Source: Leisingera sp. NJS204
GTDB taxonomy: Bacteria; Pseudomonadota; Alphaproteobacteria; Rhodobacterales; Rhodobacteraceae
Length of the DNA: 64,000 nt
Assembly (NCBI RefSeq): GCF_004123675.1
Contig: NZ_CP035417.1
Location: 2,285,501-2,349,500 of the forward strand
Reading direction: 5' to 3'
In this document: piece after piece, positions 29,208-37,100 of the stretch
Layout of the letters: each line of letters starts with the position of its first letter
Position numbering within the stretch: the stretch's first letter is position 1
Program-made: the position numbers and the translations under genes
Notes under the pieces: generated by a model
Databases searched by the model: none
Seen by the model: only the letters and a program-made list of their open reading frames with translations
What the model was told of the DNA's origin: nothing

Positions 29208-29276
29208 TTTTTTTCGAAAAAGTCCTCCGAAGCCTCTGGACGCCTGATCCCGAGGGCGCTATACGGCACGGACCGT

Positions 29277-29351
29277 TCCGGCGTAGCTCAGCGGTAGAGC
29301 AGTTGACTGTTAATCAATTGGTCGTAGGTTCGATCCCTACCGCCGGAGCCA
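29277..29351 (+). tRNA. tRNA-Asn(GTT), copy 1
   Basis: A 75-nt cloverleaf with encoded CCA. Acceptor TCCGGCG pairs with CGCCGGA, the anticodon stem is GTTGA/TCAAT with loop CTGTTAA (anticodon GTT), and the T-arm is GTAGG/CCTAC. An identical copy lies in inverted orientation at 30074-30148. Confidence 0.97.
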
Positions 29352-29359
29352 AAGAATTC

Positions 29360-30048: not shown

Positions 30049-30073
30049 TAATTCCAACTCCTTAAGGGGAAGT

Positions 30074-30148
30074 TGGCTCCGGCGGTAGGGATCGAACCTA
30101 CGACCAATTGATTAACAGTCAACTGCTCTACCGCTGAGCTACGCCGGA
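30074..30148 (-). tRNA. tRNA-Asn(GTT), copy 2 (inverted)
   Basis: Identical in all 75 bases to the copy at 29277-29351, on the opposite strand, with anticodon GTT and encoded CCA. Flanking sequences differ from copy 1 on both sides. Confidence 0.97.
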
Positions 30149-30343
30149 ATACGAGATGCGGTATAGGAATAACTCCAATGGACGTCCAGAGGGAATTTGC
30201 GGTTTTGAACAACTTTTTTCGCCCCCGCTTGAGGGGCCGTTTTTGCCGGGAAGAACCGCAAGTCCTCCAAGGCCTGCCAACCTCCAATCAGCCGCCGGGC
30301 AGGCCCCCGAATTGCACGCGCAAGACTGATGCCTGCGGTACGG

Positions 30344-31276
30344 CTAGTGCGTATCTTCAGGTGCATCCTTCGGGAACAATTCCTCCAAAAACGCCTGCAG
30401 CGGCGGGTTCTTTTCAGCCGCACCGGTTTGCTGAGCAGCAGAATGCGGCACGATAGCAAAATAAGCGTACGGCAGCGGCAGGCCAGGTTCACCAACCACG
30501 ACGCCAAGATTGGCGGGATTTTTTGCCTGCGCCAGCATCTTTGGCACCAATGCAATCCCTGCCCCCTGTCTGGCGAGTTCCAGGGCAACCGCAGCGCCGC
30601 CGACACGCAGGCCTTTGCGCATGTTCGGGTTTCTGGCCAGACCAGCGGCCCGGAACCAGTTTGCCCAGGTCGGATGCGACGCATACTGCTCTCCCCAATC
30701 AGTATGTATCAGCAAAACGTCCGGCACTGCGGCAATCCCGGATCCTGCCACATGGCTGTCGTAAAACGCTTGTGTGCAATACGGATGGGCGACGTCTTTG
30801 AACAATGGCAGCTGGGTGTGCTGCGGATAAAGATGGCTCTCATACGTAATCCTAAGATCGGTACGCGTATTCAACAGGTCGACCGGATCAGCTTCGATCC
30901 GCAGCTCGATCCCGGTGCCGGGAAACGCCTCCCGAAAGCGCGAAATGGCGGGGGCAACCCAGTTTTCTGCCAAAGACTGGATTGTGCTGACTGCAAGGCC
31001 GGAGCGGGCCTCAGCTTCAATGAGGTTCTCCGTGGCCGTCGATATGGCCGTCAATGCTTCGGAAATTGCCGGGTAATAGGTCCGCCCGGCATCGGTCAGC
31101 AGCAGACGGTTATTCAAACGGTGAAACAGCGTTTTCCCAAGAAACGCTTCTGCATTCTTGACCTGCATACTGACTGCGGCAGGCGACACGCCAAGTTCGG
31201 ACGCCGCAGGCGTGAACCCGCCCAAACGCACTGCAGCCTCGAATGCTTTGAGTGCATTCAATGGAGGAAGGAGCAT
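30344..31276 (-). CDS. LysR-family regulator (GcvA-like), divergent from the OCD/lyase pair
   Basis: This 310-residue regulator has a helix-turn-helix at ~3-62, opening LPPLNALKAFEAAVRLGGFT with SELGVSPAAVSMQVKNAE. The effector-binding domain (~90-295) includes the GcvA-type segment LRITYESHLYPQHTQLPLF. The C-terminus is Ala/Glu/Pro-rich. The start at 31276 is chosen because the LPPLNALKAFEA opening is where GcvA-like proteins begin and GGAGG-like bases lie close to it; longer in-frame starts run into the divergent promoter region. A 15-bp palindrome lies just upstream. It probably controls the ornithine-cyclodeaminase-like and lyase-like genes. Confidence 0.87.
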   Translation of the reverse strand: MLLPPLNALKAFEAAVRLGGFTPAASELGVSPAAVSMQVKNAEAFLGKTLFHRLNNRLLLTDAGRTYYPAISEALTAISTATENLIEAEARSGLAVSTIQSLAENWVAPAISRFREAFPGTGIELRIEADPVDLLNTRTDLRITYESHLYPQHTQLPLFKDVAHPYCTQAFYDSHVAGSGIAAVPDVLLIHTDWGEQYASHPTWANWFRAAGLARNPNMRKGLRVGGAAVALELARQGAGIALVPKMLAQAKNPANLGVVVGEPGLPLPYAYFAIVPHSAAQQTGAAEKNPPLQAFLEELFPKDAPEDTH

Positions 31277-31287
31277 GGAAGCGGCCC

Positions 31288-31302
31288 TTTCTGAATCAGA
31301 AA
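31288..31302. promoter_or_regulatory. Putative LysR operator (palindrome)
   Basis: TTTCTGA-A-TCAGAAA is a perfect 15-bp palindrome between the LysR start (31276) and the ornithine-cyclodeaminase-like start (31382). It satisfies the T-N11-A pattern of LysR binding sites (T31289, A31301). Its regulatory role is inferred. Confidence 0.55.
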
Positions 31303-31381
31303 AACTTAGGCCAGCCTCACATTTTTCGATCTGTAAAGACATCACACAAACGCCATCATGCCCAAAACGGGAGTGACAGAC

Positions 31382-32389
31382 ATGGCGCGCATAGAGATCG
31401 AATACCTGGGACAGCCGGAAGTGGACCGGGTGGCTCTCAGCAATGACGACATACTGGATGCGGTTGAGCAGACTTTGGCTGCAGCCGGCCGGAACAAAAC
31501 CGTCATCGAACCGCGGATGCATCTGACGCCGGATCCGGCGTTCAACGGGCACTTCAATGTGCTGCGCGGGTATGTGGCGCCGCTGGACTATGCAGGGGTC
31601 AAGATCGTGGGGGATTACGTCGACAATTACAAACAGGGCCTGCCGTCAGAGCTGGCGCTTTTGAACCTGTTTTGCCCCAGAACCGGGGCACCGCGCGCCG
31701 TGATCGACGCCGCCGGCATTACCGATATGCGCACTGGTGCGCTGACGGCCCTGGGTGCCAAATGGCTGGGGCCGAAGACCCCGAAGATCCTGGGCCATGT
31801 CGGCGCGCGCGGCACCTCGTACTGGAATGTGCGGCTGCTGGACCATCTGTTCGATTTCGAGGAAATCCGCATCCATTCGCGGCGCCCCGAAAGCCGGGAG
31901 GCCTTTGCCGAACGGCTGCGCCAGGATCTGGGCAAAGACGTGACCGTGACCACCAGCTGGCAAAGCTGCCTGGAGGGCGCTGATATTCTGGTCGAGGCAA
32001 CGCGGCTTAGCACCCCAGCCCCGATTTTTAACCAGGCCTGGGTCAAGCCGGGTGCCTTTGTGGTGCCTTACGGAACCATGAGCACCCTGCCGTTGGATTT
32101 CATCGAGGGTTTTGACAAGCTTGTCATGGATGATCTGGGGCAGATGCGCGCCGGGCACCTTGGGGCGCTGAGACCGCACATCGATGCGGGCCTGGTCAGC
32201 GAAGAGACGTTTTATGCCGAGATCGGCGAAATCGCTGCAGGATTGAAACCGGGGCGCGAGGCGGACAGCGAAACAATTCTGTTCTGGCACCGCGGCATGT
32301 CCACAAGCGATATCGCCCTTGGGGCAAAGATACTGGAGCGCGCCAGGGAACTGGGGATCGTTCAGAACCTGCTGTACCGGGATGCCTGA
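31382..32389 (+). CDS. Ornithine cyclodeaminase/mu-crystallin family protein
   Basis: This 335-residue protein has the OCD fold: N-terminal dimerisation/substrate domain with GVKIVGDYVDNYKQGLPSEL (conserved Lys), a DMRTGALTALGAKWL helix, and a Rossmann domain with the NAD loop LGHVGARGTSYWNV. The catalytic Asp region of true ornithine cyclodeaminase is replaced (PYGTMSTLPLDFIEG), so it is more likely a ketimine reductase or amino acid dehydrogenase-like member. GGGAG lies 8 bases before the ATG. The lyase-like gene starts one base after its stop, so the two products probably act on the same substrate. Confidence 0.82.
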   Translation: MARIEIEYLGQPEVDRVALSNDDILDAVEQTLAAAGRNKTVIEPRMHLTPDPAFNGHFNVLRGYVAPLDYAGVKIVGDYVDNYKQGLPSELALLNLFCPRTGAPRAVIDAAGITDMRTGALTALGAKWLGPKTPKILGHVGARGTSYWNVRLLDHLFDFEEIRIHSRRPESREAFAERLRQDLGKDVTVTTSWQSCLEGADILVEATRLSTPAPIFNQAWVKPGAFVVPYGTMSTLPLDFIEGFDKLVMDDLGQMRAGHLGALRPHIDAGLVSEETFYAEIGEIAAGLKPGREADSETILFWHRGMSTSDIALGAKILERARELGIVQNLLYRDA

Positions 32390-32390
32390 C

Positions 32391-33911
32391 ATGAAAACGC
32401 TAAGACTGGATGGCACGTCGCTGACGGTTGCGGATCTTGACCGGGCCGCGCATGGGAACTGGCAGCTGGACCTCGCCCCGGAAGGGCTTGCCAGAATGAG
32501 CCGGACACATGCGCTGGTCGCGCGGGCCATCGCAGGAAAAATCCCGGTTTACGGCGTGACAACCGGATTGGGCGCGCGGGCGACCGAGGTATTAGGTGCA
32601 GACGCACTTGCTGATTTTTCACTGCAGACGCTGCGGGGACGTGCCCATGCCATCGGCCCATTGGCCGCGCCCGAAGTGGTGCGGGCAGGTTTGATCGTCC
32701 GGCTGAACACGATGCTCGGCGGTTACAGCGCAGCCCGGCCCGAGGTCGCCCGGCATATTGCCACCTGCCTGAATGCGGGTCTTGTCCCGGTGACCGGCTC
32801 CCTTGGGTCAATTGGTGCGGCGGATCTGGTGCTGAATGCCGCAACCGGGCTGGCGCTGATCGGCGAAGGCGAGATGTATGCCGGCGATGGCAGCATCGGC
32901 CCCAGCGCCGAACTGATGCAAGCTCATGGGATTACGCCCTTAAAGCTGGCACCGCGCGACGGGCTGGCGCTGGCCAATCACTCCTGTGCAACCGCCGCCA
33001 GGGCCGCGCTGACCGTGTCCAAAGCCGCAACCGCCTTTGAAGCGGTGCAGACTTCTGCCGCGATGTCGATGGAAGGGTTCCGGGCGAATACCGGTCCTTT
33101 GGACGAAACCATTTTGTCCATTAAACCCCATCCCGGCCATCTGAAGGCAGCATCGGGCCTGCGCAACCGGCTGGCTGGCAGTGCGCTGTTTGAAACCGGC
33201 CAGGCCCGGCGCCTGCAGGATCCGCTGTCGTTTCGCAATGTTGCGCAGATCCATGGCACCGCCAAAACTGCGCTGGACCGGGCCATGGACTGCGTGCAAA
33301 TCGAGATCAGCAGTGCCAGCGACAATCCGGTTGCCCTGGCCGAACGCGAGAAATTGGTGTCTTGCGGCGCCTATTTCACATCCGAGATTACCAGTGCTGC
33401 CGAAACCCTAAGCCGGTCGTTTGTCCCATTGGCCATGGCACAGCTTGCCCGCGCCGCCAAACTTCTGAACCCCGAATTCAGCGGCTTGCCCAGTTTTCTG
33501 GCAATGCCGGACAGCGCCTCCAACGGGTTCGCCCCGGTCATGAAGGTGGCCGAATCCCTGGTCGCCGAGATCGCGCATGCCGCCCAATCGATACCGGTTT
33601 GGCCCAGCGTGAATGCAAATGGAGTGGAAGATTGCCTGACAGGTTCCCCGGCAGCCGTCAGCGCGCTGGACAGGATCGCTGACAATGTCTTTCACCTGAC
33701 GTCGATTGAATTACTGATTGCCTGCCAAGCGATAGAGCTTCGCAAGCTCAGCAGCAATTGCGGTGGGTTTCTCGCTGGTATGAACTATCAGGTCCGAAAG
33801 ATCTCGCCCGCGCTGCGCGACGACCGGCCGCTTGCCAAAGATATCGAAAACCTGTCAGCCACCCTGAAAGAAAATCGCATCGCTTTCTGCCCCCCTGACG
33901 CAAGCGAATGA
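32391..33911 (+). CDS. HAL/PAL-family ammonia-lyase homologue without the MIO triad
   Basis: This 506-residue protein shows the aromatic amino acid lyase fold throughout. Tyr54 is present in PVYGVTTGLG, the LQDPLSFRNVAQIHG block keeps the conserved Arg, and SASDNPVAL is intact. The segment that should form the MIO prosthetic group from Ala-Ser-Gly reads GSLGSIGAADL and contains no Ser-Gly pair at all. Without it the normal electrophile cannot form, so it is either inactive as an ammonia-lyase or uses another chemistry. The usual NGT after the active-site loop is replaced by ALANHSCAT. It is coupled to the OCD-like gene by a one-base gap. Confidence 0.8.
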   Translation: MKTLRLDGTSLTVADLDRAAHGNWQLDLAPEGLARMSRTHALVARAIAGKIPVYGVTTGLGARATEVLGADALADFSLQTLRGRAHAIGPLAAPEVVRAGLIVRLNTMLGGYSAARPEVARHIATCLNAGLVPVTGSLGSIGAADLVLNAATGLALIGEGEMYAGDGSIGPSAELMQAHGITPLKLAPRDGLALANHSCATAARAALTVSKAATAFEAVQTSAAMSMEGFRANTGPLDETILSIKPHPGHLKAASGLRNRLAGSALFETGQARRLQDPLSFRNVAQIHGTAKTALDRAMDCVQIEISSASDNPVALAEREKLVSCGAYFTSEITSAAETLSRSFVPLAMAQLARAAKLLNPEFSGLPSFLAMPDSASNGFAPVMKVAESLVAEIAHAAQSIPVWPSVNANGVEDCLTGSPAAVSALDRIADNVFHLTSIELLIACQAIELRKLSSNCGGFLAGMNYQVRKISPALRDDRPLAKDIENLSATLKENRIAFCPPDASE

Positions 33912-34139: not shown

Positions 34140-37094
34140 CTACGCGAAAGTAAGGTCGATATTTTCGATATTTGCGATATCCAGTGCGATTGTCGAGAAG
34201 CTGTAGCTTGATACAACACCATTGGTGTCATCCGCATTTGCAGCCAGCGACATCAGATAAGCATCAACTTCGACTTGCATCGCAGCAAAGTCCGCAGCAG
34301 CCACCTGCACCTCAAGCGTATCGATACCTGACTGCCCGTCGATCAGATCGCGCACGCCATCCGCCTGGAAGTCGCGCCAGACAAAAACGTCATCGCCATC
34401 ACCGCCAAAGGCCCTGTCTGCACCCTCACCGATACGGTTGATTTCATCATCGCCTTGGCCTGCAAAGATCAGCTCGTTTCCAACATTGCCGTCGATCGTG
34501 TCATTGCCGGCGCCCGCGAAAATGAAGTCGTCGCCCGGATTGGCACTGATGTCGTCATCACCGTCGCCGCCCAGAATCTGGTCATTGTCACCGCTGCCCG
34601 CGATCGTGTCATTGCCGCCGCCGCCGGAAATGAGGTCATTGCCGCGGTTGCCCGACAGATCGTCATCCCCTTCTCCGCCGATGATCGTGTCATCGCCAGC
34701 CGAACCTTGGATCGAGTCGTTGCCGCCCGCCCCGTTGATGCCATCATTGCCGCCGCGGCCAGCGATGGTGTCGCCGCCGCTGCCGCCGATGATGATGTCA
34801 TCAAGGCCTGAGCCTTCGAAGGTTTCGCCCCCGTCGCCCAATATCACGGCGCCCGGCGCTGACGCGTCCGGAGCCGCAATATCGCCCAACAGAAGCTCGG
34901 CTGTCGCCATCCGGCCCTGGCTGTCAACAACGGTATAGCTCACAACGTCAAACCCGCCGGTTGCTTCCGCAGTGGCGGTGTAGGTGATCTGGCCGTCCGG
35001 CTCGACTGACGCCGTGCCAAACTGCCCGTCTGTAACAGACATGACAACCGGCGTGCCGGGGGCCTGACCCGGATTGTCGTTGGCCAGCACGTCAACACTC
35101 ACGCTGCCGTTCAGTGCTGGCAGATCAGCGGTATCATCACTGGCCGAAAGGATCAGGGAGGAGATCAGAACGTCCTGATCGTCAAACTGCAGCAGTTCCA
35201 CATCAATCAACAGGTCTTCACCATCCGGCCCCGTCACTGTGAGCGAACTTCCGTCCAGTGCATTCAGTGTGATCGTGTAATCCGCAGCCGCACCGCCGAA
35301 GATTGCGGTGTCGAAATCGAAACTGCCGTCGATCGTGTCATTGCCGGCGCCTCCGATGGCTGTGTCATTGCCCCGGCCCAGGTCGATGAAGTCATCGCCG
35401 CCGCGCGCATCAACCAGATCATTGCCGGAGAACCCGCGGAAATTGTCATCCGTGTCGCAGCCGATGAGCACATCATCTACCCCCGACTCGCCGAAGATGT
35501 TTCCGCAGGGGCGGATACCGGCATCGACATCGCTGGCAGCCTCGCCTTTGCCGATTTCGATTATCTCGACCTTGCCAGCGGCAGTAACATCGGAGTCGAT
35601 TGTATCATCGCCTCCCTGATCCTGAGCGACGAAGCCGAAGCCGTCGACCTCAGCAAACAAGACTTCATAAGTGCCCGGCTCCAGGTCAGTGAACGCATAG
35701 AAGCCATCGGCATCCGTCGTCGTGGTGGAAACCTCGCCCGTATCAAGGTTCGTCAAAGTGACTTCTGCGTTGGCCACACCTGGTTCGCCATTGTCAGTAT
35801 CACTGCCATCCGTGTCTTCGAAATACCGGCCTGAGAGCGAGCCGGGCTGCGGGTCGACAACACCCAGGTCGATATCAGTTTCCGTGTTCGCACCAACAGT
35901 GATCACACCCGACATGCCGTTTTCATCAACATCTGAATCGACCGCATCGTCCGAGCCGGCGTCCTGAATGGTGAATTCGGTGCCGTCAGGCGCCACACCC
36001 ATGATCTTGTAATCACCGGCTTCAATTCCGTCGAACCGGTAGTTCCCATCGGCATCGGTGGTGGTGGTTGCCACGACAACGCCGCCGGCATCAAGCAGCT
36101 TGATCGTGACATCAGCCTTGCCAGGCTCCGGGACCACTTCTTGCTGGTCCTGGCCTTCAAGAACGATGTTATCGATGCGCACATATTCGTAGCCATCGCC
36201 CTTGGTCTTGATCGTGATGTCTTCCCCATTGCTGATGGCAACATCCTTGATGACATAGGTTGAAAAGCCGCCATCATTCGACCCGCCGCCGTCTGAATCG
36301 GCATCCAGCCGGATTGCTTCGACTAACTGACCATCCACTTTCAGCTTGATCTTGCTTTGGCCGTCGTTTTCATCCTGCACGCGTATCTTTACGTCGTAGA
36401 CACCGGTTTTGCCGTCAAAGGTGGTGCACAGCGTGCCGTAGCACCCTGGATAAGCCAGCTTGACAAGCTCACCGCCGGACGCCTGGTTGCCGTCCACCGT
36501 CTTAAAGCCGCTCTTGTGCATATTCTCGGCTTCGATCTTGTAATCGCAACCTGGGATGGTGGTCACCTCCCCGTTAATGCCGTCGCAATCCAAATCGCAG
36601 AAAACGGTGCCTGAAATGGATCCCGTTTCAATTTTGTCACCCGCGCCAAGGCATTTGTAGTCAACCCAGTTACCTTTGACGCCGCAGGTCTTGACCACAG
36701 TCAATTCAACCCCGGCCGGGGGAACATCATTGTAGAAGGTGAAATAGTCTTCGCCCTGTCCCGGGGCGTCATGGCCTTCAATCTCGATTTCGATCAGGTA
36801 ATAGGTATTGCCGTCCGAGCCTTTCAGGACGTGATAGCTTTCGGCATACATCTTCCCGCCTGCCGGTTCACCATCGACATAAGCGTTTTGGCCGTACCTG
36901 TCATCCGCGCGTTCGTTACTGTAATAGTCGCCTGACAAAAAATAGTCGTTGTCTTTTGTAGACAGGCATACCGTGGCGCTTGCCGGCATGCTGAAGGTGT
37001 CACCGTACCCAAAGCTGGATCCATTTCCTCCTTGATCCAAAAGATCTGCTTCGGTAAATGCAGTCCATTCGTAATTCCGGTAATTGTAGGTCAC
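34140..37094 (-). CDS. Large secreted RTX/SdrD-B repeat protein (adhesin-like)
   Basis: This acidic protein of ~984 residues has no N-terminal signal peptide, as for type I secretion substrates. Approximate layout: unique N-terminal part (1-155); a Cna-B/SdrD-B domain (SISGTVFCDLDCDGINGE near 161) interrupted at ~187-316 by a CBM6/35-like domain (CDYKIEAENMHKSG ... YVRIDNIVLEG) and resuming at ~327-415; a second SdrD-B domain (~420-530); RTX repeats (~535-595); a cadherin/VCBS-like domain with DVLANDNPG (~655-740); a longer RTX array with GGxGxD nonapeptides (~755-905); and a C-terminal secretion region. RTX repeats bind calcium. The start is a GTG; 37094 has better spacing from GGGGGA than 37100. 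No secretion-system genes adjoin it. Confidence 0.85.
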   Translation of the reverse strand: MTYNYRNYEWTAFTEADLLDQGGNGSSFGYGDTFSMPASATVCLSTKDNDYFLSGDYYSNERADDRYGQNAYVDGEPAGGKMYAESYHVLKGSDGNTYYLIEIEIEGHDAPGQGEDYFTFYNDVPPAGVELTVVKTCGVKGNWVDYKCLGAGDKIETGSISGTVFCDLDCDGINGEVTTIPGCDYKIEAENMHKSGFKTVDGNQASGGELVKLAYPGCYGTLCTTFDGKTGVYDVKIRVQDENDGQSKIKLKVDGQLVEAIRLDADSDGGGSNDGGFSTYVIKDVAISNGEDITIKTKGDGYEYVRIDNIVLEGQDQQEVVPEPGKADVTIKLLDAGGVVVATTTTDADGNYRFDGIEAGDYKIMGVAPDGTEFTIQDAGSDDAVDSDVDENGMSGVITVGANTETDIDLGVVDPQPGSLSGRYFEDTDGSDTDNGEPGVANAEVTLTNLDTGEVSTTTTDADGFYAFTDLEPGTYEVLFAEVDGFGFVAQDQGGDDTIDSDVTAAGKVEIIEIGKGEAASDVDAGIRPCGNIFGESGVDDVLIGCDTDDNFRGFSGNDLVDARGGDDFIDLGRGNDTAIGGAGNDTIDGSFDFDTAIFGGAAADYTITLNALDGSSLTVTGPDGEDLLIDVELLQFDDQDVLISSLILSASDDTADLPALNGSVSVDVLANDNPGQAPGTPVVMSVTDGQFGTASVEPDGQITYTATAEATGGFDVVSYTVVDSQGRMATAELLLGDIAAPDASAPGAVILGDGGETFEGSGLDDIIIGGSGGDTIAGRGGNDGINGAGGNDSIQGSAGDDTIIGGEGDDDLSGNRGNDLISGGGGNDTIAGSGDNDQILGGDGDDDISANPGDDFIFAGAGNDTIDGNVGNELIFAGQGDDEINRIGEGADRAFGGDGDDVFVWRDFQADGVRDLIDGQSGIDTLEVQVAAADFAAMQVEVDAYLMSLAANADDTNGVVSSYSFSTIALDIANIENIDLTFA

Positions 37095-37100
37095 TTTCAC

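Follow-up and report, generated by a model that had tools for sequence, protein, structure and literature searches.

What can a homologue of the ammonia-lyases do once it has lost the residue from which the catalytic group of the family is made? The question is raised by a gene in a 64,000-nucleotide stretch of the genome of the marine bacterium Leisingera sp. NJS204 (contig NZ_CP035417.1, positions 2,285,501 to 2,349,500 of the forward strand; hereafter the window), where an intact open reading frame (ORF) on the + strand, 32391..33911, runs from an ATG at 32391 to a stop codon ending at 33911 and encodes a protein of 506 amino acids, here termed the window lyase. The stop codon of the gene for its upstream partner, a 343-residue protein of the ornithine cyclodeaminase/mu-crystallin family (OCD; 31358..32389, +, with an alternative ATG at 31382), lies one base upstream of the lyase start codon. 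An earlier note on this DNA had described the ORF as keeping the blocks of the lyase family but holding no Ala-Ser-Gly, the triad that forms the cofactor 4-methylideneimidazole-5-one (MIO), and both statements were borne out. The protein matched Pfam PF00221 (Lyase_aromatic) with an E-value of 1.8e-107 and 360 bits, retained the blocks YGVTTGLG (with Tyr54), LQDPLSFRNVAQIHG, SDNP and GSLGSIGAADL, and gave an AlphaFold model with the PF00221 fold (mean pLDDT 89.2, pTM 0.90; alignment of 19 sequences). A separate HutH with a normal triad is encoded on contig C2 of the same genome (L001; loci are cited by our own numbers) and scored 606 bits against PF00221, compared with 360 for the window lyase.

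Alignment with this HutH confirmed that the serine needed for MIO cyclisation, the precursor of dehydroalanine, is missing and corrected the earlier reading of GSLGSIGAADL as a substituted triad: the triad is indeed lost, but by deletion of its serine. In the segment S140-I-G-A-A-D145 (codons at 32808..32825, +), S140-I141-G142 pair with the conserved Ser-Val-Gly that precedes the triad (HutH 135-137), A143 pairs with the triad Ala and A144 with the triad Gly, leaving the triad Ser unpaired, so that GSVG-A-S-G-DL in HutH stands against GSIG-A-(gap)-A-DL, a one-residue deletion. A second alignment put the gap one column later with the same residue count, and no genuine Ala-Ser-Gly was found elsewhere in the loop in these alignments. 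Among 20 homologous loci in species genomes, 18 had a triad-less loop; the exceptions, L021 and L022, encode Ala-Ser-Gly lyases. Comparison with the nearest relative found, Leisingera aquimarina (L003; lyase 91%, OCD 95%), gave nonsynonymous and synonymous rates (dN and dS) of 0.052 and 0.279 for the lyase, a ratio of about 0.19 that indicates purifying selection. Given these 18 loci and this ratio, the loss of the triad is not a chance lesion, and a pseudogene is ruled out by the intact ORF, the same ratio and the conserved clade.

The best solved sequence match of the window lyase was ergothionase (6s7j, 5.9e-51), the next being a histidine ammonia-lyase (HAL; 8.8e-48). Ergothionase removes trimethylamine from a histidine derivative, ergothioneine, releasing the amine from the alpha carbon. 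The Treponema denticola enzyme (ergothioneine trimethylamine-lyase, PDB 6s7j/6s7q) is likewise triad-less, carries LQDPLSFR, with Leu for the Tyr of the QDPYS motif, has the same Lys at position 385 as the window lyase, and shares its fold and tree branch. In a 69-row tree built without the diagnostic columns, ergothionase with its kin (4 rows) and 37 triad-less rows made up one side of a branch with a support of 99.9 in the Shimodaira-Hasegawa-like approximate likelihood-ratio test (SH-aLRT); the same grouping comprised 46 of the 82 rows of a first tree (SH-aLRT 98). All supports are SH-aLRT values of quick trees, for which one of 83 rows was left out of the first and 14 of 83 (the same one, long branches and near copies) out of the second. 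The 37-row triad-less group itself had a support of 92, below the starred level, and the 6s7j subclade, four rows with support 100, excluded the window lyase; one of the three companions of ergothionase in that subclade (L143) has an OCD gene in the stretch examined. In 249 genomes of the phylum, six proteins matched ergothionase at E<=1e-70, every one of them a triad-less enzyme. The altered loop is shared by a whole clade, a point that the earlier note had proposed to check. Ergothionase is stated to lack MIO in PMC13405746, and it is a MIO-free C-N lyase in the fold and branch of the window lyase; the earlier inference that a protein without MIO is either no lyase or an enzyme of an entirely new type is not supported. 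Because ergothionase shares fold and branch without MIO, an eliminating enzyme acting on an already good leaving group remains likely.

A second HutH-like type without Ala-Ser-Gly was also seen (11 rows), with a GSVG-YLTH loop and Leu for the QDPYS Tyr. These YLTH-type lyases occur at L100:13053-14537, L007:15158-16564 and L153:6177-7619, with matches in L115, L116, L118, L120, L121, L122, L128, L130 and L134; they adjoin an ordinary HutH in L116, L120 and L122 and cluster in the trees with MIO lyases, not with ergothionase. Grouping ergothionase with them instead was rejected by the approximately unbiased (AU) test (p 0.0207), the YLTH group having been named after the tree was seen. Distant PF00221-type homologues on very long branches lie near OCD genes at L087:11026-14006 and L089:4810-6195 (loops GMGMDGE, ALGMDGE and GNGGAGE).

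HutH (L001 and P. putida 1gkj) and the window lyase share, besides the fold, Tyr54, Gln276, Arg282 and Glu413-Asp414; Gln276, Arg282, Glu413 and Asp414 were retained in all 37 triad-less rows and Tyr54 in 36, with one gap. Of the Ala-Ser-Gly, the QDPYS Tyr and the His at position 84 that HutH has, in contrast, the window lyase has none. Position 279, the Tyr of QDPYS (codon of Leu279 at 33225..33227, +), is Tyr in 18/18 MIO rows; triad-less rows have Leu in 32 of 37, the window lyase included, Ile in four and Phe in one, and Leu is found in all four ergothionase-side rows. Lys385 (33543..33545, +) is characteristic of the triad-less branch, being present in 35/37 triad-less and 3/4 ergothionase-side rows and in none of the 18 MIO or 10 YLTH rows. 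Position 84 (Arg84, codon at 32640..32642, +) is His in every MIO (18), YLTH (10) and ergothionase-side (4) row and Arg in 30 of the 37 triad-less rows, again including the window lyase. This is the position that governs selectivity in HAL and tyrosine ammonia-lyase (TAL), namely His83 of P. putida HAL and His89 of TAL. Arg84 points to a substrate whose side chain is not the thio-imidazole of ergothioneine and may carry an acidic group; the use of Arg84 as a marker of OCD pairing is weakened by L072 and L143, which bear His yet have an OCD gene. Judged from its place in the cofactor-free branch of ergothionase and its association with a neighbouring redox enzyme, the window lyase is probably an amine-releasing enzyme and not a dead one.

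The strongest result is the co-occurrence of lyase and OCD across genomes, which is independent of adjacency. Among 385 alphaproteobacterial genomes (two draws of 385, treated as one sample), the OCD (E<=1e-90) was found in 27 and the lyase in 12 at E<=1e-125, a cut-off that shuts out divergent triad-less enzymes, and all 12 lyase genomes were among the 27 (P 9e-16). Counted by genus, the OCD was present in 8/8 lyase genera and in 15 of 277 genera overall (P 8e-12; 7 families). The two genes were linked in four of the 12 genomes, lay on different contigs of draft assemblies in six and were far apart on one contig in two (G261 and G379). The proteins from the 12 genomes lacked the triad Ser without exception, and had Arg84 in 11 cases and Lys385 in nine. 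Of 299 genomes sampled from the phylum, eight (six from one genus) had a lyase of at least 480 bits, and each of these also counted among the 11 genomes, out of 398, in which the OCD occurred. With respect to adjacency, searches with the lyase recovered 18 triad-less loci in genome contigs, 13 of which had the OCD within 3 kb of the lyase; in L014 it was 7.5 kb off, and four loci had none in the stretch examined. The coupling with an OCD-like gene proposed in the earlier note was thus upheld at both levels. The overall count, 31 of 50 triad-less lyases with an OCD within 3 kb, is biased, as it was the OCD that led to L070-L105 and near copies are included (L023/L024, L145/L146, L009/L011/L070), and 13/18 is the fairer figure; on plasmids the count was 5/7 (L023-L029), the seven having been picked among 40 matches listed (855 records), L026 partly for its listed OCD. 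In distant loci the OCD was better conserved (59-65% identity) than the lyase (34-38%). The OCD was found without the lyase in 15 of its 27 genomes, and it therefore has other uses.

The partner protein matched PF02423 (E 2.1e-50), and its closest solved relatives are the OCD-family alanine dehydrogenase (1omo/1vll), pyrroline-2-carboxylate reductase (6t3e) and mu-crystallin (2i99). It nevertheless fell below the cut-off of all 13 matching NCBIfam models, the best score being 167.6 against 409.15 (TIGR02371).

We consider it about an even chance that the window lyase belongs to the ergothionase lineage and, working without MIO, cleaves a C-N bond of an amino-acid betaine to expel a leaving group that is good from the outset, probably trimethylamine or a different N-methylated amine, and that an NAD(P)-dependent enzyme of OCD type acts in the same pathway. 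In such a reaction, the acid/base residues would take the proton from the beta carbon as the alpha amine departs, as in ergothionase, and the MIO electrophile would not be needed, the leaving group being already good. The OCD-type enzyme would reduce an imine or dehydrogenate an amino acid with NAD(P) as cofactor; since a quaternary nitrogen cannot become an imine, its substrate would have to be a different intermediate, a form of the lyase substrate that has lost some of its methyl groups, or an imine that the lyase produces. Both the substrate of the lyase and the OCD step are inferred. The preference for trimethylamine, or for a different N-methylated tertiary amine, as the group leaving the amino-acid betaine comes from the lineage together with the gene context of relatives, where neighbourhoods rest partly on crude ORF picking and tblastn. 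In L080, L097 and L100 a gene for a binding protein of quaternary-ammonium type separates the OCD and lyase genes, and in L026 one lies upstream. In the PDB, the L097 protein matches ProX, EgtUC and OpuCC, as well as engineered nicotine and acetylcholine sensors derived from such proteins. EgtU is an ergothioneine transporter that had been annotated as an osmoprotectant system, according to PMC9732360. In L012 a Rieske oxygenase gene and two genes of dimethylglycine dehydrogenase (DMGDH) type adjoin the lyase-OCD pair on the opposite strand, and in L144 (annotated) and L151 the triad-less lyase gene is directly 3' of hutU, with an ordinary HutH also present. L014 and L018 have genes of FA_desaturase type beside the lyase, as do L072 and L187 according to tblastn; near lyase or OCD, such genes were detected with Pfam in L014, L083 and L099 and with tblastn in L018, L071, L072, L076, L098, L101-L104 and L187, and NCBIfam gave these neighbours no name.

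Two further observations bear on this proposal. The examined part of the window locus has no transporter, hut, N-demethylation or FA_desaturase-type neighbour, so that context does not fix the substrate of the window lyase. In addition, some PF00221-type match at E<=1e-60 was present in 27 of 28 OCD genomes, for which reason the OCD may be tied generally to histidine use.

An alternative, which we regard as unlikely, is that elimination by the lyase strips an alpha-amino acid of a beta substituent, leaving an enamine or imine, and that the OCD-like enzyme reduces the imine; no betaine would be required. Such a scheme, elimination and then imine reduction, is proposed for EutB and EutC of hydroxyectoine catabolism in PMC5924519, where it is marked as not biochemically evaluated. 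There, as in the window, a lyase-type enzyme is accompanied by an OCD-family partner (EutC being assigned to the OCD family from NCBIfam models), but EutB is a dehydratase of pyridoxal phosphate (PLP) type, unlike the window lyase, and the window OCD scored 135.9 against the EutC cut-off of 471.65. The scheme agrees with the presence of imine and ketimine reductases in the OCD family and with the strict dependence of the lyase on the OCD across genomes. Against it, the characterised relative ergothionase releases its amine at the alpha carbon, the OCD occurs without the lyase in 15/27 genomes, and the quaternary-ammonium transporters are left unexplained.

The arginine at position 84 bears on a further alternative, argininosuccinate-like chemistry on the HAL fold, in which an N-substituted acidic amino acid would be cleaved, Arg84 would hold the side-chain carboxylate, the beta proton would be acidic enough without MIO and the OCD would take the released amino acid. 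L072 and L143 keep the OCD although they have His, and we hold this alternative to be quite improbable. It is just as improbable, in our judgement, that the protein is non-eliminating or non-catalytic and uses its pocket for isomerisation, addition or sensing: the MIO group has been lost and any activity is a prediction, but Tyr54 and the four other active-site residues are conserved in the branch, the gene is under purifying selection and ergothionase shows that elimination can proceed without MIO. A true ergothionase acting on ergothioneine would account for the shared branch, the triad loss, Lys385 and Leu279; given 27-28% identity to 6s7j, a position outside its subclade and Arg84 in place of the His of ergothionase, we did not accept this assignment and consider it very unlikely. 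An ordinary MIO-dependent ammonia-lyase with its triad elsewhere is ruled out for practical purposes, since, for all its high PF00221 score, the triad Ser has no counterpart in the alignments and all eight matching NCBIfam models score the protein far below cut-off (best, hutH, 296.6 against 539.15).

Upstream of the lyase-OCD pair, a LysR-type regulator is encoded divergently (30344..31276, -; start codon picked from the sequence), and the intergenic stretch 31277..31357 is presumably the promoter region. The LysR gene is kept beside the OCD gene in L003-L008, L019, L023 and L024, and its product would switch the pair on. Two identical, inverted tRNA-Asn genes, 720 nt apart (window 29276-29352 and 30073-30149), adjoin the locus, and downstream lies an ORF of 986 residues (34140-37100, -) with, by eye, SdrD-like and GGxGNDxI calcium-binding repeats. 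Elsewhere, the OCD subfamily adjoins hut genes at L105:7020-8018 (with an ordinary HutH), L096:7334-8332, L018:10289-11284 and L081:6611-7624, which suggests a possible function in histidine degradation separate from the lyase. A PhnD-like protein, by eye without a signal peptide, is encoded next to the OCD at L027:8508-9317, L088:6329-7042, L097:6352-7170, L100:6196-6996, L105:6238-6927 and L143:10703-11536 (the last being PF12974). It was rejected as a third partner, with no match at E<=1e-10 in the genome of the window or in six g296 genomes; matches above 120 bits were found in 14 of 36 genomes. A glutaminase-family gene is directly 3' of the lyase at L009:9505-10437 (PF04960) and, by tblastn, at L010:9509-10441, L011:9505-10437 and L070:4534-5466. 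The neighbours of OCD genes without the lyase (serine dehydratase, WD40/caspase, tripartite transporter, aminotransferase class IV) formed no consistent pattern.

A MIO-free lyase is not new in kind, ergothionase being already known; what is new is the OCD-linked, mostly Arg84-bearing branch beside the ergothionase subclade, as delineated from sequence comparison. No description of a pair of OCD and MIO-free lyase was found in the titles and abstract openings covered, a scope that mostly excludes subscription journals. We suggest, tentatively and with more doubt than belief, that an Arg84-type MIO-free lyase and an OCD constitute an undescribed two-enzyme route, in which the lyase works only with an OCD-type oxidoreductase and which gives Roseobacters, rhizobia and others access to amino-acid betaines, or to N-substituted amino acids of other kinds, apart from ergothioneine. 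If so, the PF00221 fold would hold a broad MIO-free half with one known activity. In public plasmid records, some members of the triad-less branch carry the annotation histidine ammonia-lyase or aromatic amino acid lyase, so that histidine degradation may be called too often and a potential origin of methylated amines overlooked. The triad-less clade offers a natural comparison for the correlates of MIO loss (the deleted Ser, Lys385 and Leu279) and for a possible setting of substrate by Arg84 versus His, and, as the lyase depends on a single OCD subfamily, the pathway is open to test with two genes.
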